Shown in pieces: positions 152 to 31,088 of a stretch of DNA of 50,588 bases. Each line of letters begins with the position of its first letter. Within the stretch, counting starts at the first letter, position 1. Source of the stretch: Gemmatimonadota bacterium. GTDB lineage: Bacteria; Gemmatimonadota; Gemmatimonadetes; Longimicrobiales; Gaopeijiaceae. The stretch lies in the NCBI GenBank assembly GCA_029262115.1, contig JAJCZZ010000075.1, positions 1 to 50,588 on the forward strand, given 5' to 3'. The notes under the pieces were generated by a model, which had not been told where the DNA came from, did no database searches, and saw nothing but the letters and a program-made list of their open reading frames with translations. The position numbers and the translations under genes are program-made.

Positions 152-1039
152 CTAGTAGGCCCCGTCTCCGGTGAGAACAGCAGGCACCGTCTGAGCCAGG
201 ATCCTCAGATCAGTGGCGAGACTCCACTCCTCGATGTACTGGAGGTCAAGTCGCGCCCACTCATCGAAGTCGGTGATCTCACTGCGACCATTCACCTGCC
301 AGTAGCATGTGATCCCCGGCATGACCGAGAGCTTCGCCCGCTGCCAATCCGCGTACTCGACCCACTCCTCGGGCAACGGAGGGCGAGGGCCTACGAGGCT
401 CATGTCACCCCGTAACACGTTCCAGAGCTGGGGCAACTCGTCTACCGAGTACTTCCGGAGAAACCGACCAAGTCTGGTGATCCGCGGATCCTCTCGGATC
501 TTGAAAGCGGGTCCCGTCATATGGTTCAGGTGAGCCAGGTCCGCCTTCCGGGCCTCCGCGTCCGCCTGCATTGTCCGGAACTTGTAGCCGGGAAACCTAC
601 GGCCTCGGTATCCGACGTACTCGCACACGTAGAAGATCGGTCCGCGAGAACGAGCCTTGATGAGCACGGCCACGAATGCCAGTGCGGGGGAGAGCACCAC
701 CAAACCGGTGCCGGCCAAAACGATATCCAACGCCCGCTTCACTTTCTGACCGACACGCCATCGGAGGCCGGCGGCGCGTTCGGGCAAAAACGCGTCCCAG
801 TCCGGAATCACGCTCACAGGCCGTACCACCCGCCCATTCACCGCCCCAGCCTTCAGGACGCCGTTCCCTTGCCCGGACTCGACAGCTCCGCGCCTACGCT
901 CGTGGTCAGGCCGGGCCACCCCATTCGTGTGCCCGTATACCCCATTCCCGTTGACCGATGGCCTGATTGCCGACGAGTCCGAGCGCGACGCCACACGCTC
1001 GGAAGGCTCGATCTGCACAGTCTCCCGATCAGTCCTCAT
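152..1039 (-). CDS. Polyprenyl-phosphate sugar-1-phosphate transferase (WcaJ/PglC-type catalytic domain)
   Basis: Predicted to start glycan assembly by moving a sugar-1-phosphate from a nucleotide sugar to undecaprenyl phosphate at the inner membrane. Of its 295 residues, about 100-295 form the bacterial sugar transferase domain. It shows one hydrophobic segment near 104-127, KFRTM at 153-157, the Asp-Glu pair of DELPQ at 200-204, LVGPRP near 215-220 and PGITCYWQVNGRS near 241-253. The first 100 residues are low-complexity with repeated Asn-Gly and no membrane spans, so the usual four-span plus nucleotide-binding module of WbaP/WcaJ is missing. The start is uncertain, because an internal start would remove part of this tail. 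It follows the RCC1 genes after a 336-nt gap. The sugar substrate cannot be read from the sequence. Confidence 0.88.
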   Translation of the reverse strand: MRTDRETVQIEPSERVASRSDSSAIRPSVNGNGVYGHTNGVARPDHERRRGAVESGQGNGVLKAGAVNGRVVRPVSVIPDWDAFLPERAAGLRWRVGQKVKRALDIVLAGTGLVVLSPALAFVAVLIKARSRGPIFYVCEYVGYRGRRFPGYKFRTMQADAEARKADLAHLNHMTGPAFKIREDPRITRLGRFLRKYSVDELPQLWNVLRGDMSLVGPRPPLPEEWVEYADWQRAKLSVMPGITCYWQVNGRSEITDFDEWARLDLQYIEEWSLATDLRILAQTVPAVLTGDGAY

Positions 1040-1375: not shown

Positions 1376-2446
1376 TCAAAATGTCCCCCGGCCCCAGCAC
1401 CGCATTCCGTTGGAGTCATCAATCGCACATGCCTGGCGTGCCCCAACCGCCAAGCGAACGAATCGCCCGTTCGGCGCCACGGGGAGCCATCCGCGAGAAT
1501 CGAATCCGGGACTCCCCGCCGTTCGGTCGTCCCATCGCAACCCCCAGCAGCGAACGGTGCCTACATTCTGAAGGGCGCAGGTCCACCCCTCGCCGACCCC
1601 AATGCTCACCAGCGATCCGCCGTCCCTCAGCACTGGGGTTCCATGGAGTTTCTTCTCGTCTCGGCCGACCTGGCCAAACGTGTTGTCACCCCAGCACCAA
1701 CCAAGACCATCTCGGTCAACGGCACACGTGTGCTCCGCGCCGGCACTGATCCCGTGAAGCGTTGTGGGGAGCGATACCCGAGTCGGGCGGGGGCTGTCCA
1801 CGAGCGTGCCTGAACCGAGCGCACCCGTACTGCCCCGACCCCAGCAGACCGCCACCCCACCCGTGGTGATCGCGCATCCATGAGCGCGCCCCGCCGCCAC
1901 CGTGCCCAGACCACCCTTCGAGTCGACAGGAGTCGGAGGCACTCCCTCGGACGACGCCAGACCGATGCCGCTCTGACCCTGCGCATTGGCACCCCAGCAA
2001 AGCGCCCGACCATCCAGACGAACAGCGCAGGTGTGCTCCCACCCGGCGACGATCTCCGAAAACTGTCCCCCGGTCGCCACGCGGACCGGGCGACTGCGGT
2101 CCTGCGTCGATCCATCGCCAAGCTGACCAAGATCGTTGGCGCCCCAGCACCAGGCATTCCCGGTCGAGTCCAACCCGCAGGAGTGGCGGCCACCGGCCGT
2201 CAGACCGCGAAGTCCGAAGGGCACGGCCACATCCGTCGGCTCCGGGATCCACAGACCATCGCCCGATCCCGTCTGGCCTCGGTCGTTTGAGCCCCAACAC
2301 CGGGTCGTTCCTCCCTCCAGCACGGCACAGATATGAGCGGCGCCAACGGCAACCTCCACCCACTCACCGACCGGGGAGGGACTCACCGGTTCAAGGCCGC
2401 ATCCCGAGGCCGTGACCAGGCATGCGGCGAGGACCCTTCCCCTCAT
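1376..2446 (-). CDS. RCC1-repeat lipoprotein, second of a pair
   Basis: A 356-residue exported protein of unknown role. The ATG overlaps the stop codon of the upstream RCC1 gene (ATGA, 2443-2446), implying translational coupling. A longer reading frame runs further upstream but overlaps that gene in another frame and lacks family sequence. The N-terminus is a short hydrophobic segment ending in Ala-Ser-Gly-Cys, a plausible if imperfect lipobox. The rest is seven RCC1-type units, each with a His-x-Cys-Ala-like strand and a Cys-Trp-Gly strand with two cysteines about nine residues apart, which fits one seven-bladed propeller. The last blade ends at the stop. Unlike its partner it has no Ig-like domain. 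RCC1 propellers bind proteins or ligands; no enzymatic function can be assigned. Confidence 0.85.
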   Translation of the reverse strand: MRGRVLAACLVTASGCGLEPVSPSPVGEWVEVAVGAAHICAVLEGGTTRCWGSNDRGQTGSGDGLWIPEPTDVAVPFGLRGLTAGGRHSCGLDSTGNAWCWGANDLGQLGDGSTQDRSRPVRVATGGQFSEIVAGWEHTCAVRLDGRALCWGANAQGQSGIGLASSEGVPPTPVDSKGGLGTVAAGRAHGCAITTGGVAVCWGRGSTGALGSGTLVDSPRPTRVSLPTTLHGISAGAEHTCAVDRDGLGWCWGDNTFGQVGRDEKKLHGTPVLRDGGSLVSIGVGEGWTCALQNVGTVRCWGLRWDDRTAGSPGFDSRGWLPVAPNGRFVRLAVGARQACAIDDSNGMRCWGRGTF

Positions 2447-3873
2447 CCGCCGACCTGAGTGAAGTCGATCGCCCCCACCACAACAGTGGGGACCGCAGTA
2501 GACTGGTAAACTCCTGTTCCCAGCTGCCCCTGCCCGCCGGCTCCCCAGCAGAAGATGTCGAGCGTCGCGCCCGCCACGGCGCAGCTGTGAGCCGCGCCGG
2601 AGAACACATCGAAGTACTCGCCAGCGACCGGGGTCGGATTCCCGCGGAGGACAGTCCCACCGTCCCCGATCTGACCCGACGCGCCCTGTCCCCAGCACCG
2701 CACGACCTTCCCGACGGCCACACCGCACGTATGGCCAGCGCCAAGCGAAAGCGAAGTGTACTTCACGCCGAGAGAGACTCGGGCCGGAGCCAGATGCTCG
2801 GTCAGGCTACCATCCCCCAGCTGCGCTCGATCGTTGCTACCCCAGCAGAACGCGAATCTGGACGACGTCAGGGCGCATGTATGCCGTCCACCCGCCTCGA
2901 CATCGACGAAGGCGGAGTCCGACAAGACACGGATCGGGACCAACGACCCCAACTGCGTTCCGTTTCCCAACTGTCCGTGATCGTTGCTGCCCCAACACCA
3001 TACTCCGCCGTCCTCAGCAACGGCACATGTATGCACCCGACCTGCCGAAACGTCGATAAACCGCCGCGCCGACTCGATCAGCACGGGCGTGTCCAGCGTG
3101 ACCGTCGAGGCGTTGCCGAGTTGGCCGAATGCATTCCACCCCCAACAACGCACACGTGAATCGTCGGTGAGACCGCACGTATGACGCCCACCTGCGGACA
3201 ACGTCGTCCACGGCTGATTCTCCGACACCTCGACCGGCAAGAGGGAACTCCGCGTCGTACGATTCCCCAGTTGGCCCTCGGCCCCGAGCCCCCAGCAATA
3301 CCCCACGCCCTCATCGCTCACCCCGCAGGTATGGGCGGCGCCGGTCGTTACCGAAGACATAGCCGTGGGCAACGGCACCAGGCGGGGCTGCGACCCGCCC
3401 AGTCGATCCCCTGTCCCGAGTTCCCCACCGATTCCACGTCCCCAGCACCAGATCTGGCCGAGGCCGGATCGAGCGCACGTGTGTTCAGGAGCGTCCGGTG
3501 CCGCTGGCGACGTGACTTTGACCTGAGAGGTTCCCGTGAATCCTGCGACGGAGGCGGAGATATCTGCGACCCCCTCGCCGACCGCTTCTACACCCCCTCG
3601 ATCGTCGACGACGGCCACGGTCGTATCGGAACTCGCCCACACCACCCCATCGTCCGGCAGCGGGATGCCCGCGCCATTCCGTAGGATGACCGCGAGTTGG
3701 AACCGATCCGTGACCGCCAGCTGCTTCGAGGGAGGATCGACCGCGACACTCGCCACATCGTCGCCCCCCGGTCGAGAAATTCCTTCCTCGCACCCGGCAA
3801 GCGTGAGGACGGCGGCGGCCAGCAGGGTAAGCCGATGCGACGGAATCAACACTCGTAGCCGACGTGGTCCCAT
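2443..3873 (-). CDS. RCC1-repeat lipoprotein with an Ig-like (BIG2) domain, first of a pair
   Basis: A 476-residue predicted lipoprotein. The N-terminal 30 residues contain a hydrophobic segment ending in Leu-Ala-Gly-Cys, a clear lipobox. Residues about 40-125 look like a bacterial Ig-like BIG2 domain (V..VDP, W.SSD..VA.VD..G.V.A...G.A.I.A). Seven RCC1 units then follow, each with paired cysteines in the pattern HTC...CWG and ending in GQLG.G-like turns. The gene starts 13 nt after the stop of the UDP-sugar dehydrogenase, so the two are probably co-transcribed, and it overlaps the second RCC1 gene by 4 nt. Location in the periplasm or on the outer membrane is inferred from the lipobox. A structural or adhesion role at the surface glycan is possible but unproven. 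Confidence 0.87.
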   Translation of the reverse strand: MGPRRLRVLIPSHRLTLLAAAVLTLAGCEEGISRPGGDDVASVAVDPPSKQLAVTDRFQLAVILRNGAGIPLPDDGVVWASSDTTVAVVDDRGGVEAVGEGVADISASVAGFTGTSQVKVTSPAAPDAPEHTCARSGLGQIWCWGRGIGGELGTGDRLGGSQPRLVPLPTAMSSVTTGAAHTCGVSDEGVGYCWGLGAEGQLGNRTTRSSLLPVEVSENQPWTTLSAGGRHTCGLTDDSRVRCWGWNAFGQLGNASTVTLDTPVLIESARRFIDVSAGRVHTCAVAEDGGVWCWGSNDHGQLGNGTQLGSLVPIRVLSDSAFVDVEAGGRHTCALTSSRFAFCWGSNDRAQLGDGSLTEHLAPARVSLGVKYTSLSLGAGHTCGVAVGKVVRCWGQGASGQIGDGGTVLRGNPTPVAGEYFDVFSGAAHSCAVAGATLDIFCWGAGGQGQLGTGVYQSTAVPTVVVGAIDFTQVGG

Positions 3874-3886
3874 AGGCGACCGCCCC

Positions 3887-5197
3887 TCAACCCTTCACGA
3901 TCCAACGAGTCTCATTCTCCGACGGCACGCCTGCGGTGGCATTACGCGCGTCAACCAGGACCCTTGACTTCGCGACGATTGCCGGATAATCGAACTGCGA
4001 GTGGTCTGTGAGAATGACCACCGCGTCGGCCTCACGGAACGTCTCTTCGGTCAGCTCCACCGAGGTGTGTTCGGAGCCATTCTCACTCACGGACGCCACG
4101 AACGGGTCGTGGTAGGTCACCTCGGCTCCGTCGGCGGCGAGGAGACGGAGAACGTCGAGAGCCGGCGATTCCCGTACATCGTCGATGTCCTTCTTGTAGG
4201 CCATCCCGAGGAGCAGTATCCGTGACCCTTTGACGGACTTGCTGCAGTTGTTCAGGGCCTCGCGCACCTTCCCCACGACAAACAGCGGCATTTCCGCGTT
4301 GATCTCGGAGGCGAGTTCAATGAACCGGGTCTTGTAGTTCAGCGTGCGCATCTTCCAGGACAGGTAATGCGGGTCAACCGGAATACAATGCCCACCCAGT
4401 CCGGGGCCCGGGACGAACTTCATGAAGCCGAATGGCTTCGTACCCGCCGCCTCGATGACTTCCCAGATGTTCACACCGAGACGGTCGGCGATGATGGCGG
4501 TCTCATTCACCAGTCCGATGTTTACGGCACGAAACGTGTTCTCGAGAATCTTCGTCAACTCCGCCGCTTCAGCGGACGAGACGGGCACCATGCAGTCGAT
4601 GAAGCGTTCGTAGACGGCCGCGCCTACGGCCGAGCACGTTTCCGTGATCCCCCCGATGACCTTCGGGGTGTTCTTCGTAAACCACTTGGTGTTGCCCGGA
4701 TCAACGCGTTCCGGAGAGAAGCACAGGAAGAAATCCCTACCGGCCTCCAGGCCCGTTTCTTCAAGCGCGGGAAGGACCACCTCCCGCGTCGTGCCGGGAT
4801 ATGTGGTGGATTCCAGAATGATCAACTGTCCAGGCCGGAGGGCTGCTGCCACCGCCTCGGTGGCAGCAATCACATGGGAGACGTCCGGGTCCCGCGTCTT
4901 CGACAGCGGCGTGGGGACGCAGATCGAGATCGCGTCGCACTCCTTCAGCCGTGACATGTCCGTGGTGGCTTCGAGGATACCGGCCTCCCGCAGGCTCGCC
5001 ACGTCAGAGTCTTCCAGGTCCTGAATATGGGTCCGGCCGGCATTCACACCGTCGACCACACGGTCGCTGACGTCGAAACCGATGACGCTGAGGCCGCCCC
5101 GTCCCGCTTCGACCGCCAGCGGGAGACCCACGTAGCCCAGGCCAATCACGCCCAGAGTCACGGGCTGGTCACGAAAACGATCTACAACATCAGACAT
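3887..5197 (-). CDS. UDP-N-acetylhexosamine 6-dehydrogenase (WbpA/WecC family)
   Basis: Predicted cytosolic NAD-dependent enzyme that oxidises C6 of a UDP-HexNAc twice to the uronic acid. The 436 residues match the usual family length. A Rossmann motif GLGYVGLP lies at 19-26, the EST-TYPGTT segment at 129-137, the substrate-binding SSAEAAELTKILEN region around 207-220, and the catalytic cysteine is C271 in GGHCIPVDP. The C-terminal UDP-binding domain has GMAYKKD. Both WbpA-like (UDP-GlcNAc) and WecC-like (UDP-ManNAc) substrates fit, and I lean to WbpA. It heads a run with the two RCC1 lipoprotein genes. The AsnB-type amidotransferase elsewhere in the locus could amidate the resulting uronic acid. 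Confidence 0.9.
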   Translation of the reverse strand: MSDVVDRFRDQPVTLGVIGLGYVGLPLAVEAGRGGLSVIGFDVSDRVVDGVNAGRTHIQDLEDSDVASLREAGILEATTDMSRLKECDAISICVPTPLSKTRDPDVSHVIAATEAVAAALRPGQLIILESTTYPGTTREVVLPALEETGLEAGRDFFLCFSPERVDPGNTKWFTKNTPKVIGGITETCSAVGAAVYERFIDCMVPVSSAEAAELTKILENTFRAVNIGLVNETAIIADRLGVNIWEVIEAAGTKPFGFMKFVPGPGLGGHCIPVDPHYLSWKMRTLNYKTRFIELASEINAEMPLFVVGKVREALNNCSKSVKGSRILLLGMAYKKDIDDVRESPALDVLRLLAADGAEVTYHDPFVASVSENGSEHTSVELTEETFREADAVVILTDHSQFDYPAIVAKSRVLVDARNATAGVPSENETRWIVKG

Positions 5198-5306: not shown

Positions 5307-7232
5307 TCAGCGAGGGTGGGTTGTCCCGCCGCCTGTGTGTGCGGCTCTGGAGCGGGCTGCCTCCAAAGCGCGCTGGGACTGACTCGCCAAGGTAAGCCTG
5401 ACTTCCAACTCGAAGACATCCACGCCCCCTCCGCTCTCCAGGTAGTCCTCCGCTGTTTGGAGCCCGGCTTTCCGGTCGTCCTCGGTTCCCACCAACACCA
5501 CGGAGGAAGCTCCCGTGTCGGCCAACGCGTTACTGAGCGCCGACACGCCCCCGTAGATGGGATGGGATCCCAGGTTGCCCCGGCCGCGGGCCATATCGGG
5601 TGACGCGAGCCCCACGACCCGCATGGGAGTCGAGGCAACGCGCTCGACTTCCTGCGCGGCACCGTCGAGGAATGCGAGCGGGCCGTACAACACGGCCGTT
5701 CGACCGCCGTCCGCCCAACGTTTCGTGGTGCCCTCCATCAAGCGGAACGAGAGCCGACTCCCTACGGTCAAGAGCGAGCAGGCAAGCAGGTCGATCACCA
5801 CCACTCCGCGGGAAAGGCCCACCCGGTCTACAAGGAGGACGAGGGCGACGGCCAGGAGCGTCGCGACCAGATTCGCCCGTCCGATCCGCAGCGCGTCGTA
5901 CAGACCGAAGGTCGGCCAGTGCGTGGAATACACGCCTGACACGATGAAGCCGATCAACTTCGCCCCCAACCATAGAGGGAGCGTCCGGGCGAAGTACACC
6001 AATTCGGCGGGGAGTTCGGCGGCCTCCCATCGAACCAGGTAGGCGGCATAGTAGGCCAGGCCGATCCAGACCCCGTCCAGAACGAGGCTCAGCACCGGGT
6101 AGCGGGCGTGGGCCCGAACGACCGCCTCGTACAACGGTGGCCCATCTCCAGACTCGGTCTCCAACGAGCGAAGTCGAACGGTGAGGAGGTAGGCGCCCAC
6201 GAGCGTCAGGGCACCGACGAGAATCCCGCCCAGCAGCAGCGCGGTGCCGCGGCCGACCGTGCGCAGGAACAGGCCGGCCCCGCCGCCCGCTGCCGCGAGC
6301 CCCCACAGCAGCCAGACGGTGCGCGTTTCAGGAAGCCCCAGCGCCACCAATCGATGGGACGTGTGATCCCGTCCACCCTCGCTGACCGGACGCCCTTCGA
6401 GGAGTCGACCGACCGTGACGAGCGTGGTGTCCAGAATGGGAACCCCCAGGATCAGAACCGGGGCCGCCAAGACGGCCGCCAGGTTCCGTGAAAGCCCGGG
6501 AACGGGCGCCAGGGCCAGGCCGCCCAAGAGGAGGCCCACGAAGAGTGAACCGGAGTCTCCCATGAAGATCCGCGCAGGCGGGTAGTTGTGGGCCAGGAAG
6601 CCGACCAGGGCCGCCGTGAACGCCATCGCCAGGGTCATCAGTTCCGTGGCACCCTCGAAAGCGAACAGCACCGCGAGGTACGCCCCCGCAATGGCGGCAA
6701 CGCCCGCTGCCAGCCCGTCCATGTTGTCGAGGAGGTTCAGGGCATTCGTGATTCCCACGAACCAGAACAAGGACAGCACGACGTCGACGGCGTAGAAGCC
6801 AGTCAGCCAGACACCGATCCCCGACACGACGAGGACAGATGCCGCAGCGATCTGCCCGGCGAGCTTGGCAAGCGGTCGGAGTTTGAGGAGGTCATCTACC
6901 AGACCGAGCAGAAAGGCTGCGGATGACGCGAGAAGGAGGCCCTGCCCGGGAGTCCACCCCACGAGCGACTGAGAAGGACGGAGCGAAAGAGCCCGCTCTG
7001 GCCCGCCCCCCAGCATGTACCAGCCAGCGACCGACAGCCCGAATCCGAGGAAGATGGCCACCCCACCCACAGCGGGCGTAGGCCGGCGGTGCCACCGGTC
7101 GTCCTGCACACCCCGCACGAGCCCACCAGCCAACGCTGCACGGCGGACCACCGCTGTAAGGACCAGCGTCAAGATCAACGCCAGGCTCGCGACGATCCCA
7201 GTCAGCACGCTCGCGTTCACGCGATCGTCCAC
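5307..7232 (-). CDS. WecA/MraY-like phosphoglycosyltransferase fused to a CapD/WbaP-type membrane module
   Basis: A 641-residue membrane protein with two parts. Residues 1-355 are a glycan-initiating polyprenyl-phosphate HexNAc-1-phosphate transferase: DDRWHRRPTPAVGG near 44-57, Asp pair 113-114, NLLDNMDGLAAG 167-178, MGDSGS 224-229 and the His-containing GGRDHTSHRL near 287-296, with about ten spans. Residues about 366-500 add several more spans, and 510-610 resemble the nucleotide-binding fold found before the catalytic domain in WbaP, WcaJ and CapD proteins. No epimerase or sugar-phosphate transferase domain follows, so the module is orphaned. It starts with GTG, 16 nt after rfbB. It would start glycan assembly on undecaprenyl phosphate; the added module may be regulatory. 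Confidence 0.87.
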   Translation of the reverse strand: MDDRVNASVLTGIVASLALILTLVLTAVVRRAALAGGLVRGVQDDRWHRRPTPAVGGVAIFLGFGLSVAGWYMLGGGPERALSLRPSQSLVGWTPGQGLLLASSAAFLLGLVDDLLKLRPLAKLAGQIAAASVLVVSGIGVWLTGFYAVDVVLSLFWFVGITNALNLLDNMDGLAAGVAAIAGAYLAVLFAFEGATELMTLAMAFTAALVGFLAHNYPPARIFMGDSGSLFVGLLLGGLALAPVPGLSRNLAAVLAAPVLILGVPILDTTLVTVGRLLEGRPVSEGGRDHTSHRLVALGLPETRTVWLLWGLAAAGGGAGLFLRTVGRGTALLLGGILVGALTLVGAYLLTVRLRSLETESGDGPPLYEAVVRAHARYPVLSLVLDGVWIGLAYYAAYLVRWEAAELPAELVYFARTLPLWLGAKLIGFIVSGVYSTHWPTFGLYDALRIGRANLVATLLAVALVLLVDRVGLSRGVVVIDLLACSLLTVGSRLSFRLMEGTTKRWADGGRTAVLYGPLAFLDGAAQEVERVASTPMRVVGLASPDMARGRGNLGSHPIYGGVSALSNALADTGASSVVLVGTEDDRKAGLQTAEDYLESGGGVDVFELEVRLTLASQSQRALEAARSRAAHTGGGTTHPR

Positions 7233-7248
7233 CGATGAGCGCGGCGGA

Positions 7249-8277
7249 TCATCCGTACTGCTCCTTCATCCACTCCCAGTATGCCCCGCTCTTCACCCGC
7301 TCCCACCACGTCGGGTTCTCCAGGTACCACCGCACCGTATCCTGCATGCCGTCCTCGAACCCGACCTGGGGCGTCCACCCCAGCTCCTCCGCCGCCCGAC
7401 TGAAGTCGATGGCGTACCGCCGGTCGTGCCCCGGGCGATCCTTCACATGCTCGATCCGGTCCGTCGGCTTCCCGAGGATGGCCAGAAGCGTCGTGACGAC
7501 CGCCAGATTCGTCTTTTCGGCATCGCCCCCGAAGTTGTAGACCCGCCCCGCCCCACCCCGGTCGGCCGCGGCCAGGATCCCTCGGCAGTGGTCGAGCACA
7601 TGGATCCAGTCGCGCACATACAGACCGTCTCCGTAGACGGGCAGCACCCGGTCTTCGAGGGCGTGTGTGATCATCAGGGGGATGAGCTTTTCGGGGAACT
7701 GATACGGACCATAGTTGTTGCTGCACCGCGTGACGACCACGTCCATGCCGTGCGTGTGGTGGTACGCGAGCGCGAGATGATCCGAGGCCGCCTTCGAGGC
7801 CGAATACGGCGACCGCGGAGCAATCGGCGTCTCCTCGGTGAACATCGGCGCGCTGGGGTCGCCGTCGTCCGGGTCCCGCCACGGGAGTTCGCCGTACACC
7901 TCGTCGGTGGAGACGTGGACGAAGCGGTCTACCCCGGCCGCCAAGGCCGCCGCGAGCAAGGTCTGGGTGCCGAGCACGTTGGTCCGCACGAACGGTGCGT
8001 CGGACACGATCGAACGGTCCACGTGGGACTCGGCCGCCAGATGAAGCACCACGTCCGTGCCGTCCATGACCGCTGCCACCGCCTCAGCATCGCAGATATC
8101 GGCACGGAGGAAGGTGTAGCGCGGGTCGTCCGCCACGTCCGTGAGGCTCTCCAGATTCCCGGCGTAGGTGAGGGCGTCGACGTTGACGATCTCCGCCGTG
8201 GGCCGCGTTTCAAGGAGATGGCGGATCAGGTTCGAACCGATGAAGCCCGCTCCTCCGGTCACCAGGTACCGGGTCAC
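7249..8277 (-). CDS. rfbB: dTDP-glucose 4,6-dehydratase
   Basis: Second step of dTDP-L-rhamnose synthesis: dTDP-glucose to dTDP-4-keto-6-deoxyglucose, with bound NAD. At 342 residues it has normal length. It shows the Rossmann motif GGAGFIGS at 8-15, the catalytic TDE at 124-126, YSASK with Y158 and K162, and the NNYGPYQFPEKLIPL segment at 187-201. The C-terminus (W..VK.G.Y..W....Y) is typical of RfbB. The GTG start overlaps the rfbA stop by 4 nt, so the two are coupled. Substrate comes from RfbA and product goes towards RfbD, although the intermediate epimerase RfbC is not encoded in this window. Confidence 0.95.
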   Translation of the reverse strand: MTRYLVTGGAGFIGSNLIRHLLETRPTAEIVNVDALTYAGNLESLTDVADDPRYTFLRADICDAEAVAAVMDGTDVVLHLAAESHVDRSIVSDAPFVRTNVLGTQTLLAAALAAGVDRFVHVSTDEVYGELPWRDPDDGDPSAPMFTEETPIAPRSPYSASKAASDHLALAYHHTHGMDVVVTRCSNNYGPYQFPEKLIPLMITHALEDRVLPVYGDGLYVRDWIHVLDHCRGILAAADRGGAGRVYNFGGDAEKTNLAVVTTLLAILGKPTDRIEHVKDRPGHDRRYAIDFSRAAEELGWTPQVGFEDGMQDTVRWYLENPTWWERVKSGAYWEWMKEQYG

Positions 8278-16309: not shown

Positions 16310-17287
16310 CTAGGCTGCCGGCTCCACCGAGGCATCCCGGCCGGTGACGCCGAAGACGGCCAGCGCCGCCAGCACTGGGAGCACTACCAGCAGAATGCGG
16401 ACCTCCCGCCAGATGCCGAATACAAGGTAGAGACCGAGGGCCGGCGGCACTGCCCAGGCCGCCCGGCGAAGAACAGGAGGGGCGACCGACAGACCGCGCA
16501 CCGCCGCCAGCCACAGAGGACCGAGAAACAGCCCGAACAAGAGCACCGCCCACGCCACCACCGCCGGGGCCGTGTTCGCCGCGAGGATCTGGGGGAGGGT
16601 GATCGCCGGGGGTGCCGGTCCCCGAAGCCAGCGAACAGCGCCGTAGGTAATCCCCCAGACAAGAAACGGGGATCCGGCCCACGCAATTCCCATCGGCTCG
16701 TCTTGGGGCCCATCGGTGCGCGACCATATCGCGGCCACCATGATGGCAGCGAGAACGGCGGTTTCGCGGTTCGAGGTGGCCAACGTGAGGGCGGCGAGCA
16801 CCACCCACCGCCTTCGCTCGATTGCCCACGACAGTGTCCATACAACCGCCGCCGCTTCCATGATGCTGAATGGTTGGAAGTAGTATGCGGGGTCGGCGAG
16901 AGAAAGGATCATGGCGGGAACCACGATCAGACTGCCCCACAGCGCTGTCTCGGAGCGGAACCATCGCCCGAGCAGTTTATACTGACCAACCAGAAGGCCG
17001 AGAGCCCCCGCAGTATTCCACGTGAGATAGACGAAGTGGAAGCTCCGCCGCTCACCCATGAGGGGGGACAGGATCGAGAGCCCACCCTCGGCCACCAACA
17101 CCGAGAGCATCCGATAGCGGTACGGCGAAGTGGCGACCCCTTCGAGAACGTCGTTGTGTCGCGCGATCCGTAGGTCGGTCTGGGGGACCTCGATGAGGAC
17201 CCAGTATACCAGCACGAGCAAGACGCCGACCCAGACGAGAAGCCAGGGCGCCCAACGCTCGACCGGATCGCGCGCCTGGCCGGTCAC
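16310..17287 (-). CDS. Polytopic membrane protein, possible GT-C-like glycosyltransferase
   Basis: A 325-residue protein with roughly nine hydrophobic segments and no firm family. The GTG start at 17287 overlaps the stop of the dprE1-like gene by 4 nt. After the first span comes a loop with acidic residues and the segment ATSPYRYRMLSVLV. Similar loops appear in poorly annotated bacterial GT-C-like proteins, which use polyprenyl-phosphate sugars as donors. As it directly follows the ubiA-dprE2-dprE1 set, it is a candidate user of lipid-linked arabinose, but this rests on position and topology alone. It could also be a transporter or flippase of the lipid donor. Confidence 0.7.
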   Translation of the reverse strand: MTGQARDPVERWAPWLLVWVGVLLVLVYWVLIEVPQTDLRIARHNDVLEGVATSPYRYRMLSVLVAEGGLSILSPLMGERRSFHFVYLTWNTAGALGLLVGQYKLLGRWFRSETALWGSLIVVPAMILSLADPAYYFQPFSIMEAAAVVWTLSWAIERRRWVVLAALTLATSNRETAVLAAIMVAAIWSRTDGPQDEPMGIAWAGSPFLVWGITYGAVRWLRGPAPPAITLPQILAANTAPAVVAWAVLLFGLFLGPLWLAAVRGLSVAPPVLRRAAWAVPPALGLYLVFGIWREVRILLVVLPVLAALAVFGVTGRDASVEPAA

Positions 17288-18666
17288 GAGCGGCTCCCGG
17301 GCACTCCACGGTGGGCCCCGCGCTCCCACCGTCGAACCAGGTTCGACGAAAAGACCCGGTCACGGCGACCCGGCAACCGACCCACGGACACCGCGTCCTT
17401 GGCCGCGTACACACGGGCGCCGTGATCCCGTCCGATCTGGTCGAGCGATCGGAGCAGTCGCATCAACCGCACGTAGTGCTCGCCACGGCCTACGGCGAAG
17501 TCGAGGGCGAGCGAATACCCGTCCAGGGGATAGCCGGCAGCTCCCTCCTCTGGAGTGTGTCGCTTCATCACGCCCAGGAACGAGCGGACGCCGGACGACC
17601 GTTGTTGGGCCAGGACAGCTGCGAACGCGTCGCGCGCGGCGTCACCCGGCACGAAGAGCTGATACTGCAAAAGCCCATCGGCACCATACGCTCGCTTCCA
17701 GCCAGGCATGTAGTCCAGGAGGAAGTGGAAAGCGGCGTGCGTCTGCCGGTACCGGCGGACACCACCCGCACGGGCCGTCACGTATTTTCCTGCGTTCAAC
17801 GTCCGGATGCCGGGTCCGTTCGTCAGGGGGCGCAGCGCCATCCATGCATGTCGCCTCGGGAGTACGCCGGCGAGGCGGCTCGGGAGCCTTTGAGCTTCGG
17901 CGTCCATCGCCTGGCCCGACAGTTGGTGGTCCGGCGGCAGATACCACGCGGAGTGGATCACGCCGCGTCCGGGCTTGGAGCCCGTGCAATCTATCCACGC
18001 CACGACGTAGTCCGCCTCACGGGCGCCTCGGTCGAGCGCCTCGAAGGTCTCTTCAAGGGACGACGTCGGACGGCCTTCGACATCCAGAAACCCACTGTGA
18101 ACCCGGCGAAGCGACAGGGTCACGTCGGTGATTGTGCCCGTCAGCCCCTGTGCACCCACGACATCGTCGACCCCGAGCGACCACACGTCCGAGTCCTCCG
18201 CTACAACTCCACGGTCGAGCCGTCGCTCTTCGCCGTTTCCCGTCACGAGACCGAGACCCTGCACCCACCGGCCCACGGCACCCGCACCGACATGGTTCTT
18301 TCCGTGGACGTTCATGGCCACGCAGCCGCCCAGGGTGGCTTTCATTGTGCCGGGGACGACGGCAGGCCACCAGCCGTGCGGGAGCGCTGAGGCCCAGAGG
18401 GCCTCGATCGTCACGCCCGCCTCTGCTCGCACGACGCCGCGATGAGGGTCGAGTTCCAGAATACGATTGAGACCTCGGAGGTCGAGGACCGCCCCCCCTT
18501 GGTTCAGGGCGGCGTCTCCGTAGCTGAGGCCGCCCCCCCGGGCGGCCACCGACAGACCCTTCTCGACGGCCTCGGTGATCGAGGCGGCGACCTCCTCGGC
18601 ATTCAGCGGCCGATAGACCGTCGACCGGGCGCGATTGGCCATTCCCCACCCGGTCAGCATCTCCAT
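17284..18666 (-). CDS. dprE1: Decaprenylphosphoryl-beta-D-ribose 2'-oxidase-like FAD enzyme (DprE1 family)
   Basis: Predicted FAD oxidoreductase that oxidises polyprenylphosphoryl-ribose at C2' to the keto intermediate. It has 460 residues from the ATG at 18666. An N-terminal LTGWG as in Mycobacterium DprE1 supports this start, and a longer frame would run into the preceding gene. The FAD-binding segments RGGGLSYGDAALNQGG (43-58) and VHGKNH (121-126) match the family, and WKRAYGADGLLQYQLFVP is close to the mycobacterial version. The benzothiazinone-target cysteine of M. tuberculosis (Cys387) corresponds here to Ala387 in SLALDF. The lysine of AAKD near 423 is kept. The C-terminal part appears shorter by my recollection of the mycobacterial protein. 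It overlaps the next gene by 4 nt. Confidence 0.85.
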   Translation of the reverse strand: MEMLTGWGMANRARSTVYRPLNAEEVAASITEAVEKGLSVAARGGGLSYGDAALNQGGAVLDLRGLNRILELDPHRGVVRAEAGVTIEALWASALPHGWWPAVVPGTMKATLGGCVAMNVHGKNHVGAGAVGRWVQGLGLVTGNGEERRLDRGVVAEDSDVWSLGVDDVVGAQGLTGTITDVTLSLRRVHSGFLDVEGRPTSSLEETFEALDRGAREADYVVAWIDCTGSKPGRGVIHSAWYLPPDHQLSGQAMDAEAQRLPSRLAGVLPRRHAWMALRPLTNGPGIRTLNAGKYVTARAGGVRRYRQTHAAFHFLLDYMPGWKRAYGADGLLQYQLFVPGDAARDAFAAVLAQQRSSGVRSFLGVMKRHTPEEGAAGYPLDGYSLALDFAVGRGEHYVRLMRLLRSLDQIGRDHGARVYAAKDAVSVGRLPGRRDRVFSSNLVRRWERGAHRGVPGSRS

Positions 18667-18677
18667 GCGAGGCGGCC

Positions 18678-19403
18678 TCACGGGGGCGCGATCCGCTTGA
18701 AGAGCGGCCTCGGCATCAGCCGGAGGGCCGACGACACGACCCACCACCACCCTGGCACGTAGAAGACGTCCCTGCCCCGATCGAGCCCCCGGACAATGAT
18801 CTCGGCGGCCTTCGACGCGGCAATCGAGGGCGGGAACCCGGGTACATCTCCGAGCATCCGGGTCCGCACCCAGCCGGGTTTGATGACCGAAACGCCCACA
18901 CCCGCCCCGTGCAGGGCGTGGCGCAGCCCCTCCAGGTACTGATGAAGAGCGGCTTTGGTCGCCCCGTAGATCGGATTTCCCTTGCGTCCCCGATCTCCGG
19001 CCACGGAGCCGATCGCCGCCAGTCGACCTTTGCCGGCTTCCACGAAGTAGTCGGCACCCCAGGACAGAACGTGCACGGCACCGATGAAGTTCACGTCGAC
19101 CATACGGCGAGTACCGCTCACGCCTGCCTCCATGACGCCCGCGCAGTAGACGAGCAGATCCATCTGACCGAGGGCGGCGAGGGCGCGCTCCAACGAAGGG
19201 ACGACGTCTCCGTCGCGGGCCACGTCGAGTACGCCTCCCACGATCGTCTCCGACGGGAACTCCGAACCGAGTTCACCGACGACCGCGTCCACCTTTCCCT
19301 CATCCCGGCCCAGAAGCGCGACCCGCCACGAGCGATCGAGGTAGACACGGGCGAGCGCCTTGCCGATTCCGTCGGTGGCGCCGACCAGAACGACGTGCTT
19401 CAC
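18678..19403 (-). CDS. dprE2: SDR reductase, DprE2-like
   Basis: A 241-residue classical short-chain dehydrogenase, predicted to reduce the keto intermediate made by the DprE1-like enzyme to polyprenylphosphoryl-arabinose. It shows GATDGIGKA at 8-16, an NAG-like CAG at 87-89, Ser133 in GSVAGDRGRKG, and Y146/K150 in YGATK. The C-terminus is hydrophobic and basic (YVPGWWWVVSSALRLMPRPLFKRI), as in DprE2, which suits membrane association. The GTG at 19403 is chosen because the next residues are the family's N-terminal strand. DprE2 identity depends on its place between ubiA and dprE1, since the SDR family alone is not specific. Confidence 0.82.
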   Translation of the reverse strand: MKHVVLVGATDGIGKALARVYLDRSWRVALLGRDEGKVDAVVGELGSEFPSETIVGGVLDVARDGDVVPSLERALAALGQMDLLVYCAGVMEAGVSGTRRMVDVNFIGAVHVLSWGADYFVEAGKGRLAAIGSVAGDRGRKGNPIYGATKAALHQYLEGLRHALHGAGVGVSVIKPGWVRTRMLGDVPGFPPSIAASKAAEIIVRGLDRGRDVFYVPGWWWVVSSALRLMPRPLFKRIAPP

Positions 19404-19443
19404 GTCCGGACCCCATCGCTGACGCCGGCCAACCCGACGCTCT

Positions 19444-20385
19444 TCACGTGGCCAGCCACACGGCGGCGCCGAACACCGCCAGACAGATCCAACTGGCCCG
19501 GTCCCGCAGCGCGAACGCGACGGGATCGTCCGACGTCTCGCCCCGGTGCGCCAAGACCCACGCCCGCGCGAGCCAGTAGAGGATGACCGGAAGCCCCAGC
19601 CAGAGCACGTCGGGTCGTGAGTAGAGCCGGATGACGTCGTCGCCGGTGATGTACAGGCAGTACACGAGCGCCGCCGCCACCCCACTGCCGAGCCCGAGCG
19701 ACACGAGAATGGGAAGGTCGTCCACCCGCCATCCCCGTCCGTCCAGGGCCTCCAGCGCCCGAGCCTGCGCACCCCACGACTCGATGGCCCGTTTCAGGAG
19801 CGCGAGCGAAAGGAACAGGAAGACCGAGAACGCGAGGAACCATCGGGACAGGGGCACCTCCGCAGCCGCGGCGCCGGCCACGACACGGACGGTGTACAGG
19901 GCGGAGAGCACCAGGACATCGAGCGCCAGCAGTCGCTTGAGCCCCATGGAGTAGGCGGTCGTGGTGACCAGGTAGGCGCCCCAAACGGCAAGAAAGAGTC
20001 GGGGCAGCGTCCACGCGAGGGCGAGTGATCCGAGCACGAGGACAAGGGCCGCTACCATCGCGGTCCCCTTCGAGAGGGTGCCCGCCGCCAGCGGCCTGTG
20101 GCGCTTCGTAGGGTGGAGGCGATCGACTTCGATGTCGGTGAGGTCGTTCATCAGATACGTCGCCGACGCCAGAGCGGACATGCTGGCCGTGGCTGCCACG
20201 ACAGCAACGAAGACGTCCACCTCGGACAGCCTGTGGGCGGCCAGCGCCGGAAGCAGTACGAGGAGGTTCTTCGACCACTGGTGCGGTCGGAGGGCTCGGA
20301 GGAGTGGCGGCAAGGTGGGCGGGGTGGGTGCGATGGGACCGATCAGGCTCGGGCTAACGTGCGGGAACCGGGTCCGATCCGCCAC
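19444..20385 (-). CDS. UbiA-family prenyltransferase, polyprenyl-phosphate phosphoribosyltransferase-like
   Basis: A 313-residue integral membrane protein with about eight to nine spans. It carries N80-D81-x-x-D84-x-x-x-D88 followed by RLHPTKRHRPLAAG, which is the form found in decaprenyl-phosphate phosphoribosyltransferase (Rv3806c) rather than in quinone-pathway UbiA. It also has YSMGLKRLLALDVLVL and LYTVRVVAGA. The predicted reaction is transfer of 5-phosphoribose from PRPP to polyprenyl phosphate. The GTG start overlaps the preceding glycosyltransferase gene by 32 nt and no better internal start is available. The phosphatase that would remove the 5-phosphate is not seen nearby. Confidence 0.85.
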   Translation of the reverse strand: MADRTRFPHVSPSLIGPIAPTPPTLPPLLRALRPHQWSKNLLVLLPALAAHRLSEVDVFVAVVAATASMSALASATYLMNDLTDIEVDRLHPTKRHRPLAAGTLSKGTAMVAALVLVLGSLALAWTLPRLFLAVWGAYLVTTTAYSMGLKRLLALDVLVLSALYTVRVVAGAAAAEVPLSRWFLAFSVFLFLSLALLKRAIESWGAQARALEALDGRGWRVDDLPILVSLGLGSGVAAALVYCLYITGDDVIRLYSRPDVLWLGLPVILYWLARAWVLAHRGETSDDPVAFALRDRASWICLAVFGAAVWLAT

Positions 20386-25121: not shown

Positions 25122-26549
25122 CTACCTGGCCGGTCCCTGGAGACGCACGTTCGAGCGAGCGGCGACGCGCTGCCGCACGGACAGCCGGGCTTCCCTACGA
25201 AGACGCCAGATCGCGTACATGTCCTGGATTCCCACCGCGCAGAAGACGAAAGCCAGCGGCATGATTTGCGCACGGTGCCGGTAGGCCGTGCCGACATTCC
25301 CCTCAACCATGGCGTAGGCGACTGTCGTGACCATCAGGATCGCGGCCGGCACAGTATACGACCTCGCGTCGTGTCTCAGAGCCAGGATCGCTCCCCAAAT
25401 TCCCGCGGGAACCAACAGGTACCAGAGAAGAACCTCCGGAAGGGTGAACGTTTGCAAAGCGCCGGAAATCGACCATGGAAACGGCGCGAAGAGGAAGTAC
25501 ACCAGCCCAACCGGAAGGAAGAGGAGCGCGCCGACCGGCGACGACACGTCGAAGTTCTCTCCGTATGCGGAGCCCGCTCCGAAGGCGAGATCCTGTCGCA
25601 GGTACTCGACGCGTTGAAGGGAAGGCTCTTCGAACAGGCTGCCGCCCGCCCCCGTCATCTGAAGCGCGACGACAAGGACCGACATCAATACGACACCCAT
25701 TGCGAGCGCACGGAGCGGGCGCCGACTATTGCCCATGGCAATACCGGCAACGGCGGGGATGCCGACGATTACGGTGAGATACTCCCGGAAGACGGCAAGG
25801 AGAGCGAGTGGAACGAATGCCATGACCAGATCCCACACCTTCCTCCGCCGCTGAAATCGAACCGCCAGCATAACGACGAGCGAGATCAGGAAGATCGCAG
25901 GGGCCTCCCGCACGTTCAGGACCGACCAGAGGAGGAGCGAGGGAAAGAACAGCGTCAGCCACACCGCCGTCCGGGCGATCCTCGGCTGATTCGGGACGAT
26001 ACTGGCGAGCGTGTAGTAGACGGGAATGGCACACCACGTCATGAGGAATATGTTGACCACCGCCACCGCCGCTTTCGCCGGCCCGAAGATCAGGAAGGCG
26101 ACCGCATTCATGGTCGGGAAGCCGACCTGGAGGCTACCGCGCAGCTTGCTCGGCACGGGCCCACGGCCCTGCCAGCTATCCAGGAGGCCCTGACCCAAGA
26201 GCTCAAACGAACCCTGGTCCGGGGCGAACACATACGGACCGACCGTCTGGTGGATGAGGGCGAAGAGCAACAGACGGACGCCCGCCGCCAGGAGCATCAC
26301 CGGTAGCAGGAATTGCCCGACCGATCGATCCGTCTGGAGCTTCGCCAGCACCAGCGAGATCATGATCCCCACGCCACCCAGGAGCGTCACCGCGAATCGG
26401 GAGTTGGGGTCGCTGACGCCGAGCGCCGCCGCCGCCAATCCCACCACGGCCACGAGGGGCGCGAGCGTGAGGACTGCCGGGAGCCCGGCCCGCCCGCGCC
26501 CGCCGTTTCGGACGCGAAGTTCCTGCGGGGCGTGGTTCAAAAAGGCCAT
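25122..26549 (-). CDS. Polytopic membrane protein, possible polysaccharide polymerase (Wzy-like)
   Basis: A 475-residue protein with about ten to eleven hydrophobic segments and a large loop after the third or fourth. Near the C-terminus, GNVGTAYRHRAQIMPLAFVF resembles the conserved end of many polysaccharide-locus membrane proteins, where the Arg-His-Arg pattern is typical of polymerase or GT39-like proteins. FAPDQGSFELLGQGLLDSW near 110-130 is similar to GT-C first loops. I cannot decide between chain polymerase and membrane glycosyltransferase. It is followed without a gap by the GT4 gene and preceded by an 82-nt gap in which nothing clear is seen. Confidence 0.75.
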   Translation of the reverse strand: MAFLNHAPQELRVRNGGRGRAGLPAVLTLAPLVAVVGLAAAALGVSDPNSRFAVTLLGGVGIMISLVLAKLQTDRSVGQFLLPVMLLAAGVRLLLFALIHQTVGPYVFAPDQGSFELLGQGLLDSWQGRGPVPSKLRGSLQVGFPTMNAVAFLIFGPAKAAVAVVNIFLMTWCAIPVYYTLASIVPNQPRIARTAVWLTLFFPSLLLWSVLNVREAPAIFLISLVVMLAVRFQRRRKVWDLVMAFVPLALLAVFREYLTVIVGIPAVAGIAMGNSRRPLRALAMGVVLMSVLVVALQMTGAGGSLFEEPSLQRVEYLRQDLAFGAGSAYGENFDVSSPVGALLFLPVGLVYFLFAPFPWSISGALQTFTLPEVLLWYLLVPAGIWGAILALRHDARSYTVPAAILMVTTVAYAMVEGNVGTAYRHRAQIMPLAFVFCAVGIQDMYAIWRLRREARLSVRQRVAARSNVRLQGPAR

Positions 26550-27575: not shown

Positions 27576-29006
27576 TCATGAACCGGATAGCATCCGACGG
27601 AGTCGCACGTCCCACACTGCCGTAGCAGCCATCGCCACCCCGATGAAGGCAACGAACCCAACCGTACCGGCCACCGGCGCCATCGTCTGGCTGCCCAACA
27701 TCAGGGACACTACAAGGAGTCCGACGGACGCCGCGAGCGGCCGGGCCGCCGCGCGAATGAAGCTGACGTCACCCAGGGCACGGTGCATCAACGGGAGACG
27801 CAACGCCGGTCCGAGAACCAGAGCATACGCCAGGGCGTACAGCGCACCCCCAAGGGGCCCCTGCCAGTAGATGAGGGGAACACCTACCGCGAGAACCAGG
27901 AGTGCGTTCGCCACCGAAACCTTCCCCACATACCGCGTCTGGTCGGACAGAAAGGCGAGGGCACCCCAGTTCGTTCCGGAGACCGCGCGGATCCCGAAGG
28001 CAACCCCGAGAACAGACAGCGGAGCGGCAGCGCCCACCCAATCGGAGCCCAGCAAGAAGTGAAGCAGTGGACGCGAAAAGCCCGCGAGCCCCATCCCCAA
28101 CGGTAGCGACACGAACGCGATGATCCGAGTCGAGTCGGCGAAGGCCCGGCGACGCTCCTCCAGCGTATCAAGGGCGCCGAGCACCGGCAGCGTGATCCGG
28201 TCCAGCGCCAAGGCAACTTCCTGAATCAGGGCGGGCACGTAAAACGCGACCGTGTAGACGCCCAACGCCGTATTCCCGTGGAAGTATCGCACCGCCAGAT
28301 CATCGGCACGCTCACCCACGATGGCGAAGCCCGAGGTCCCGAACATCGGCACGGTGAATCGAAACGCGCCAGCGAACTCCTCCCGGTTCCACCGTATCGG
28401 GGGGAGGGGCCGGGCCAACCAGATCAGCCCGACGCCCCGCACGATCGTCATGACCGCGTGTCCCGCCGCCATCGAAGCGGCTGGTCGAACCCCACTCCGG
28501 AAGAGGACCACAGTCGCCCCGAGGCCGAGGACCATCGCCACGGCCTCCGTGACCTTCGGTCGCAGGAAGTCCAGACGTCGATCCAGGACGGCTTGGTACA
28601 TCCCGGTGGGCCCGTCCAGCAGGGACAGCGTCAGGATGTACACGACGGTGGCCAGGTCCGGATCGCCGAGCCAGCGCCCGAGAGCGGGAGCCAGCAAAGC
28701 CATGGCCGCGGCCGTGGCCAAAGAAAGAGCGGTCGTAAGTATGAGACCGGCCGTGAGCGCCGCCGACAGGCGAGACTCCTCCACCTTGACGGCGTACTGA
28801 CGGAATCCAGATTGGAGCAGCAGCAACCCGGGCGCCAGTACGATCAGCCCGGTGGAGTACGCACCGTACTGCTCAGGGAGGAACAGCCGTGCCAGCACAA
28901 CGAGGCGGATCATACTGAACCCGCGCAGGACTGCCGTTCCCCCCACCTCCACGAAGGCCTTCCGCACGACCAGACGTGCGGTGGCCTCCCCCGTGTCACC
29001 CGTCAC
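27576..29006 (-). CDS. Polysaccharide flippase (Wzx/MATE-like, MOP superfamily)
   Basis: A 476-residue membrane protein with about 12-14 spans. The N-terminal region (VGGTAVLRGFSMIRLVVLARLF and the EQYGAYSTGL segment) is typical of lipid-linked oligosaccharide flippases, followed by VYILTLSLLDGPTGMYQAVLDRRLDF. It should move undecaprenyl-diphosphate-linked repeat units across the inner membrane. The GTG start at 29006 overlaps the methyltransferase stop by 4 nt; the longer frame upstream lies over that gene and is not used. With the ligase/polymerase gene, it supports a Wzx/Wzy-type route. Confidence 0.9.
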   Translation of the reverse strand: MTGDTGEATARLVVRKAFVEVGGTAVLRGFSMIRLVVLARLFLPEQYGAYSTGLIVLAPGLLLLQSGFRQYAVKVEESRLSAALTAGLILTTALSLATAAAMALLAPALGRWLGDPDLATVVYILTLSLLDGPTGMYQAVLDRRLDFLRPKVTEAVAMVLGLGATVVLFRSGVRPAASMAAGHAVMTIVRGVGLIWLARPLPPIRWNREEFAGAFRFTVPMFGTSGFAIVGERADDLAVRYFHGNTALGVYTVAFYVPALIQEVALALDRITLPVLGALDTLEERRRAFADSTRIIAFVSLPLGMGLAGFSRPLLHFLLGSDWVGAAAPLSVLGVAFGIRAVSGTNWGALAFLSDQTRYVGKVSVANALLVLAVGVPLIYWQGPLGGALYALAYALVLGPALRLPLMHRALGDVSFIRAAARPLAASVGLLVVSLMLGSQTMAPVAGTVGFVAFIGVAMAATAVWDVRLRRMLSGS

Positions 29007-29926: not shown

Positions 29927-31084
29927 ATGCGGATTCTGCTCGTCCACAACGTGCCAATCTGGCATCCCCACGCCGGCGGTGGCCAGCGCATCAATCACGA
30001 CATCGGTGTCGGGCTTGCGCGTCTCGGTCACGATGTGACGGTAATCCACGTCGGGGGCGGCGAGAACGAGCCGTCGGGCCTGCCGTTCTCGACAATCACG
30101 GTCTCCTACAGCGGGCGACCCCTCGTCGCAGCCGCTCGGGTCGCACGAGCCGCCCGCCGGCATCTACGTGCCGCCGGCGCGGACGTCGTCTACGCCAGCG
30201 CGAAGGAAGGTGGGTTTCTCCGGCGGGTTCTCCCGCCCGGGGTGGGACTGATGGCCACGCATCACCATCCGGACCCGCCACCCCTCCCCCGTCTCGACTG
30301 GTTCGGATCTCCCGTACGGTCGGTCCGGCTCGCCCGGAGATCTCAGAGCGCCCTCCTGGACGCGGCTCTCCTCCGTTCCGCTCACCATCTGACGACCGTA
30401 TCGGTCTGGAGCGCGGACCGGCTCAAGAAGCTCGGGTATGTCCCGCCTGACCAACGGTTCGCGACCGTTCGGAACGGGCTTCGGGAGGAGTGGTTCGCCC
30501 CGCCCCCCGACCCGTCCGGGAACGACGCCACCGACCTGTTCCTGGTGGGACGGCTGGACCGGCAAAAGGGGGTGGACGTATTGCTTCGGGCGCTGGCCCG
30601 GCCCGAGCTCCACGGGCGAACCCTGCGCGTCGTAGGTGACGGCCCCGACCGCGCCGTGCTGGAAGGGCTTGCTCGCGATCTCGGCGTCGGCGACCGCACG
30701 ATCTTCGAGGGCGGCGCGGACAACGACCGGGTCCGTGCGCTCATACGCGACTCCCACGTCGTCGCGTTGCCCTCGCGGTCCGAGAATTATCCGCTCGTAG
30801 TCCTCGAGGCCCTTGCCGCTTCGATGCCCGTGGTGGCGACCACGGTCGGCGGGATTCCCGAGATGGTCAAGAACGAGCGGCACGCGCTCCTCGTACCACC
30901 GGACGACGTCACAGCTCTCGCCGCGGCACTCGCACGGCTCCTGAGCGACCCCGTGCTTCGGCGGCGTCTGGGCGCCGCCGGTCGAGAGCGGGCCGAGGAG
31001 CATCGTTGGGCTCGCATCCTCCCCCGGGTGGAAGAAGAGCTGCTGGTGACCGCGGAGTTGGCGGGCGGCCAAGGGGTCGGCTAA
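29927..31084 (+). CDS. Glycosyltransferase family 4, the only plus-strand gene
   Basis: A 385-residue GT4 enzyme with N-terminal LLVHNVPIWHPHAGGGQRINHDI, the donor-domain start FLVGRLDRQKGVDVLLRAL, and SENYPLVVLEALAASMPVVATTVGGIPEM containing both EX7E glutamates. It is the only confident gene on this strand. It stands head to head with the methyltransferase and ends 4 nt before the end of the opposing glycosyltransferase gene, with no terminator visible between them. Its orientation suggests separate control or a later insertion into the locus. Its GC content and codon use look like those of its neighbours. Confidence 0.92.
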   Translation: MRILLVHNVPIWHPHAGGGQRINHDIGVGLARLGHDVTVIHVGGGENEPSGLPFSTITVSYSGRPLVAAARVARAARRHLRAAGADVVYASAKEGGFLRRVLPPGVGLMATHHHPDPPPLPRLDWFGSPVRSVRLARRSQSALLDAALLRSAHHLTTVSVWSADRLKKLGYVPPDQRFATVRNGLREEWFAPPPDPSGNDATDLFLVGRLDRQKGVDVLLRALARPELHGRTLRVVGDGPDRAVLEGLARDLGVGDRTIFEGGADNDRVRALIRDSHVVALPSRSENYPLVVLEALAASMPVVATTVGGIPEMVKNERHALLVPPDDVTALAAALARLLSDPVLRRRLGAAGRERAEEHRWARILPRVEEELLVTAELAGGQGVG

Positions 31085-31088
31085 GCGC

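Follow-up and report, generated by a model that had tools for sequence, protein, structure and literature searches.

The window analyzed here is a stretch of 50,588 nucleotides from a Gemmatimonadota bacterium, in which two tandem genes, p1 and p2, lie inside a polysaccharide locus. Because this stretch is the whole of contig C75, the locus is cut off at the low-numbered end of the sequence. The features on which the analysis draws are the following.

152-33592, minus strand: polysaccharide locus (glycosyltransferases, nucleotide-sugar enzymes, flippase), from profile matches
152-1039, minus strand: priming sugar-phosphate transferase, catalytic half only (Bac_transf; TIGR03025; EPS_sugtrans positions 255-445)
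1376-2446, minus strand: p2, 356 amino acids (open reading frame and translation), with a short signal peptide, a weak lipobox (ASG-C16), and seven cysteine-paired RCC1 blades, without Big_2
2443-2446, minus strand: ATGA overlap of the p1 stop and p2 start, read from the sequence
2443-3873, minus strand: p1, 476 amino acids (open reading frame and translation), with a signal peptide and lipobox (LAG-C28), Big_2 at about 40-111, and seven cysteine-paired RCC1 blades at about 124-476
3887-5197, minus strand: NDP-sugar (UDP-sugar type) dehydrogenase (Pfam PF03721, PF00984, PF03720; TIGR03026)
5307-7232, minus strand: WecA/MraY-like transferase fused to the N-terminal half of EPS_sugtrans (Pfam, NCBIfam)
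27576-29006, minus strand: Wzx-like flippase (Polysacc_synt_3)

The locus lies downstream of an rplQ-rpoA-rpsD-secY block and, on the minus strand from 152 to approximately 33600, consists mostly of genes for glycosyltransferases, nucleotide-sugar enzymes, methyltransferases, and the Wzx flippase. The dehydrogenase gene ends 13 bases upstream of p1 and the priming transferase gene follows p2 after 336 bases. An earlier, sequence-only reading had placed the pair between a UDP-sugar dehydrogenase and a sugar-phosphate transferase in a glycan locus, and profile matches (TIGR03026 for the former, TIGR03025 and Bac_transf for the latter) confirmed this. The priming enzyme itself looks split, with its N-terminal half in the fusion at 5307-7232 and its catalytic half separate at 152-1039, minus strand. 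At 17284-20385 (minus strand), a DprE1-like FAD oxidase, a DprE2-like reductase, and a UbiA/DPPR-synthase-like prenyltransferase are encoded side by side, with DprE1, DprE2, and DPPR matches that fall below NCBIfam cut-offs; these possibly constitute a pathway to a polyprenyl-phosphate pentose, resembling the one that supplies the arabinose donor in mycobacteria. Proteins encoded at 25122-26549, 16310-17287, and 30164-31225 (minus strand) had no Pfam match and the first two had no NCBIfam match either; the products of these two resemble membrane proteins, and 25122-26549 is a candidate for the polymerase gene.

Most of what had been said of the two genes themselves held. They overlap by four bases, each encodes seven RCC1 units as judged by sequence and Pfam, and Big_2 was matched in the first protein only (26.0 bits against a cut-off of 22.8). 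Pfam matched RCC1, RCC1_2, and WD40_RLD in both proteins, the RCC1 families (PF00415/PF13540) scoring 198 and 95 bits for RCC1 and 132 and 143 for RCC1_2, with cut-offs of about 22. No NCBIfam model matched p1 or p2, and no kinase or other signaling domain was found in either by Pfam. A lipobox had been proposed for each, which stood for p1, where it is classical and good (LAGC, in LTLAGC) and where orthologs retain C-E-E-G..P-G-G, but was weak in p2. The p2 signal has only 15 residues before ASGC, so that lipidation is less sure, and the p2 ortholog has a good lipobox (LVAC) in relative G020 but not in relative G014. By its lipobox p1 is clearly predicted to be lipid-anchored, and p2 is probably so. 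No RCC1 genes besides these two were found in the 5.45-Mb assembly.

Fold and cysteine pairs

The expectation of two cysteines about nine residues apart in every unit proved correct for all 14 units: p1 and p2 each have seven C-x9-C-W-G units spaced 48-51 residues, except that the last p1 unit has ten residues between its cysteines (x10), and the only unpaired cysteines are the signal and lipid ones. AlphaFold2 modeled both proteins as seven-bladed propellers (p2 mean pLDDT 81.5 and pTM 0.83; p1 propeller pLDDT about 90), while the Big_2 (Ig) part of p1 came out unfolded in a model from a five-sequence alignment. In a Foldseek search of the PDB the p2 model matched UVR8 (TM 0.85) and also RCC1 and BLIP-II. 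The cysteine pairs sit on facing strands of a hairpin in the models and would be expected to form disulfides in the oxidising environment of the periplasm or at the cell exterior. The proposal of disulfide-braced propellers is therefore plausible, but the feature is generic and no mark of this pair, since both cysteines were present in 442 of 443 recognised RCC1 blades of relatives, a figure biased upward because the blade set was picked by the cysteine motif. Cysteine pairing as a hallmark of the p1-p2 pair was accordingly rejected, being near-universal in RCC1 units of relatives.

Placement in related genomes

RCC1 genes were present in 47 of 59 relatives, of which only G014 and G020 had near-full-length p1 matches of at least 450 bits and only the same two had p2 matches at 308 bits, with identities of 48-51% for p1 and 46-47% for p2. 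The priming transferase ortholog is directly behind the p2 ortholog in both. G014 keeps the order p1-p2-transferase, tens of kilobases away from the dehydrogenase, and G020 has the order p2-Bac_transf-Wza-Wzc-Wzx-GT2-Wzy-p1, with a second p1 a few genes further. G014 also has two apparently identical priming transferase genes 5 kb apart (L075:1642-2427 and 6701-7486), which suggests a recent duplication or an assembly repeat. Searching 395 genomes of the phylum at a later stage, which served as a held-out test, added G159 (467 bits) and G389 (300 bits, the gene being cut by the contig end), each with its p1 ortholog directly behind a Wzy gene in a polysaccharide locus. None of the 18 weaker matches examined from this search was in a polysaccharide locus, compared with both of the strong ones (Fisher p 0.005).

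All strong p1 orthologs (at least 300 bits: G014, G020 with two copies, G159, and G389) are therefore in Wzx/Wzy polysaccharide loci. The predicted non-random placement of p1 and p2 orthologs was upheld in that every one is in a polysaccharide locus and gene order with respect to the priming transferase is conserved in two cases, although this conservation of gene order within one family could partly be shared descent. The idea of a pair was partly right: orthologs of both p1 and p2 are present in G014 and G020, G014 alone has them side by side, and in several loci there is just one RCC1 gene.

Quick maximum-likelihood trees were built from 86 and from 90 propellers; backbone support was weak and the repeats are hard to align. 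Changes of the label marking an exopolysaccharide (EPS) locus numbered 10 against 18.0 when shuffled in the tree of 86 propellers, and 6 against 17.4 in the tree of 90, with none of 500 shuffles giving as few. The p1 orthologs formed a clade (support 96) near other EPS-locus groups, including family f2, and the p2 orthologs formed a separate clade (support 100), which indicates that p1 and p2 did not arise from one another by recent duplication and that at least two RCC1 lines occur in these polysaccharide loci.

The wider survey covered the strongest RCC1 matches, genes of one genome being non-independent. Among the matches listed, 12 of 95 RCC1 windows had at least three polysaccharide markers, as against none of 20 random windows, a contrast that by itself is not significant (p 0.2) and that is somewhat circular since the markers were partly drawn from these same loci. 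The glycan placement thus does not extend to RCC1 genes at large, with approximately seven-eighths of surveyed windows below three markers, and a general link between RCC1 genes and glycan loci was rejected as a rule because most surveyed windows were without polysaccharide genes. Rather, the windows were of two kinds, most having no polysaccharide gene and a minority being packed with them. At 8 loci, against at most 1.87 expected, an RCC1 gene was no more than 10 kb from a gene for a priming transferase or a dehydrogenase, and the excess over chance persists with transferase and dehydrogenase markers taken from the p1-p2 contig alone. No polysaccharide neighbors of RCC1 genes were seen in the deltaproteobacterial relatives (L009-L013).

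In the polysaccharide-rich minority, the RCC1 gene was usually inside the locus and co-directional. G055 has the order Wzy-RCC1-Wza-Wzc-Wzx and G043 Wzy-RCC1-Wza, both with a 4-base overlap of the Wzy and RCC1 genes; G028 has Wza-Wzc-RCC1-Wzx with a one-base contact; G039 has Wza-Wzc-RCC1-RCC1; in G047 the RCC1 gene follows a glycosyltransferase gene with a 4-base overlap; and in G045 it is flanked by glycosyltransferases at gaps of 11 and 5 bases. Overlaps in relatives are provisional because gene starts came from a simple caller. Neighbors in these loci include Wza (Poly_export), Wzc, and Wzi-family barrels, to which several neighbors of 550-590 residues belong, some scoring below the Pfam cut-off, and the polymerase genes match Wzy_C, which includes O-antigen ligases as well. 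In G039 the RCC1 gene beside wzc (L081:5513-9106) encodes a Big_2 protein whose 21 RCC1 units would suffice for three propellers, and a single-propeller RCC1 gene follows it.

These data bear on whether p1 and p2 are bystanders, that is, general surface RCC1 lipoproteins of a kind frequent in the phylum, which bind other ligands or proteins and have come by chance into a variable glycan region. That most RCC1 genes are located elsewhere is consistent with this, as is the modest tree support inside the family, where repeats are hard to align. We nonetheless consider it unlikely, because all p1 orthologs remain in EPS loci even where these are rearranged (G014), because the genes are co-directional and overlapping, and because the labels cluster on the tree. 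The priming-transferase subtype and an EPS-locus RCC1 gene also occur together in 7 of 59 genomes (hypergeometric p 8e-7), which is partly circular as one locus type carries both.

Some RCC1 propellers of relatives occur in one protein with a Ser/Thr kinase and an Ig-like part (L155:2258-4978, L087:7406-10306, L134:2194-5259), and are likewise cysteine-paired. Fusion of a sister RCC1 lineage to kinase and Ig domains implies use of the propeller as a sensor ectodomain, and p1 and p2 might by extension recognise a ligand and tune polysaccharide output through contact with the inner-membrane machinery. This appears quite improbable, given that neither p1 nor p2 contains a signaling domain, kinase or other, and that the p1 lipobox speaks for a lipid anchor and against a membrane-spanning receptor.

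Proposed role

As read from sequence, p1 and p2 are exported seven-bladed RCC1 propellers encoded within a Wzx/Wzy-type exopolysaccharide operon, and they probably reside in the outer membrane as lipoproteins and take part in a late step of the polysaccharide pathway. The chances seem to us about even that they work outside the cytoplasm as a functional part of the polysaccharide system, with a role in polymer handling. Since relatives keep proteins of this type in secreted-polysaccharide clusters, they probably help to handle or hold the polymer at the cell surface.

One way in which they could do so is as an export accessory, with outer-membrane lipoproteins assembling or gating a pore of short OPX protein (Wza) and Wzi-type barrel, in the way that other machines of the outer membrane are aided by lipoprotein helpers. 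RCC1 genes adjoin wzy, wza, or wzc in G055, G043, G028, and G039, and Wza is short (205-214 amino acids) with Wzi-family barrels nearby, as in the Myxococcus translocon (PMC9601211). This reading is nevertheless rather doubtful. RCC1 genes are missing from most polysaccharide loci of the family, their copy number ranges from one to three, and Wza and Wzc genes are off the p1-p2 contig. The genome does have such a pair near the start of another contig, C15, most like that of the G020 locus (58% and 51% identity), which counts in favor of p1 and p2 belonging to a polysaccharide system. Many related genomes with the dehydrogenase have no EPS-locus RCC1 genes, so the two proteins do not belong to the core of the export machinery, and variable gene presence fits a surface-retention accessory better.

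We favor polymer binding and retention, followed in order by the export accessory, bystanders, and sensing. The propellers would act on the polymer after polymerisation. By analogy it is possible, though short of an even chance, that they attach to the polymer once it is exported and retain or arrange it at the outer membrane, the Big_2 domain of p1 then serving as a stalk. Against this, no glycan-binding site was identified in p1 or p2, the p2 lipobox is weak, and most RCC1 lipoproteins of the phylum are encoded away from polysaccharide genes, which implies a binding module of general use, possibly with a protein as ligand. Only tentatively, then, do we suggest that a cysteine-paired RCC1 lineage is a dedicated, undescribed part of Wzx/Wzy systems that binds and fixes or orders the emerging polymer, here in a two-protein form from overlapping genes, with p1 bearing Big_2 and p2 bare. 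How bacteria retain secreted polysaccharides at the cell surface is poorly known beyond a few models. If the proposal is true, a propeller fold best known from eukaryotes gains a bacterial role in polysaccharide handling, and a likely job emerges for some of the numerous RCC1 lipoproteins of bacteria whose present annotation goes no further than the fold.

Comparison with known systems

The preference for binding and retention derives from analogy with the Vibrio propellers Bap1 and RbmC, which are not known to have RCC1 repeats or to be lipoproteins, so that the likeness to p1 and p2 is functional only. Both are extracellular beta-propeller adhesins that bind the organism's own exopolysaccharide (PMC10102183). 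Myxococcus EpsY/EpsX is a composite OPX/beta-barrel polysaccharide translocon; short OPX proteins and Wzi-type barrels also occur in the RCC1-bearing loci here, and the available part of that account mentions no RCC1 component (PMC9601211). In the open-access literature we found no relevant link of RCC1 proteins to exopolysaccharide loci, Wza, or lipoproteins.

By structure, p1 and p2 share the seven-bladed RCC1 fold of UVR8, RCC1, and BLIP-II, but these function in another compartment or with another partner, and p1 and p2 differ in their lipoprotein anchor, the Big_2 domain of p1, and the polysaccharide locus. BLIP-II is a secreted bacterial member of the RCC1 family (PMC9218822), and the likeness seen between this beta-lactamase inhibitor and p2 is one of fold. 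The cysteine motif is close to that of the plant receptor kinase CRINKLY4/ACR4, whose extracellular domain is an RCC1-like propeller containing seven C(X10)CWG repeats that are presumed to be disulfide-bonded (PMC4617170; 7a0j), although the spacing there is C(X10)C as opposed to C-x9-C here. A transmembrane segment with a fused kinase defines that type and p1 and p2 have no kinase, whereas the kinase, Ig-like, and RCC1 proteins of relatives do match its general layout. The RCC1 fold, its exported use in bacteria (BLIP-II), and the cysteine motif (CRINKLY4) are thus already known, and what seems new here is not the cysteine pairing but the linkage of the p1/p2 lineage to polysaccharide loci.
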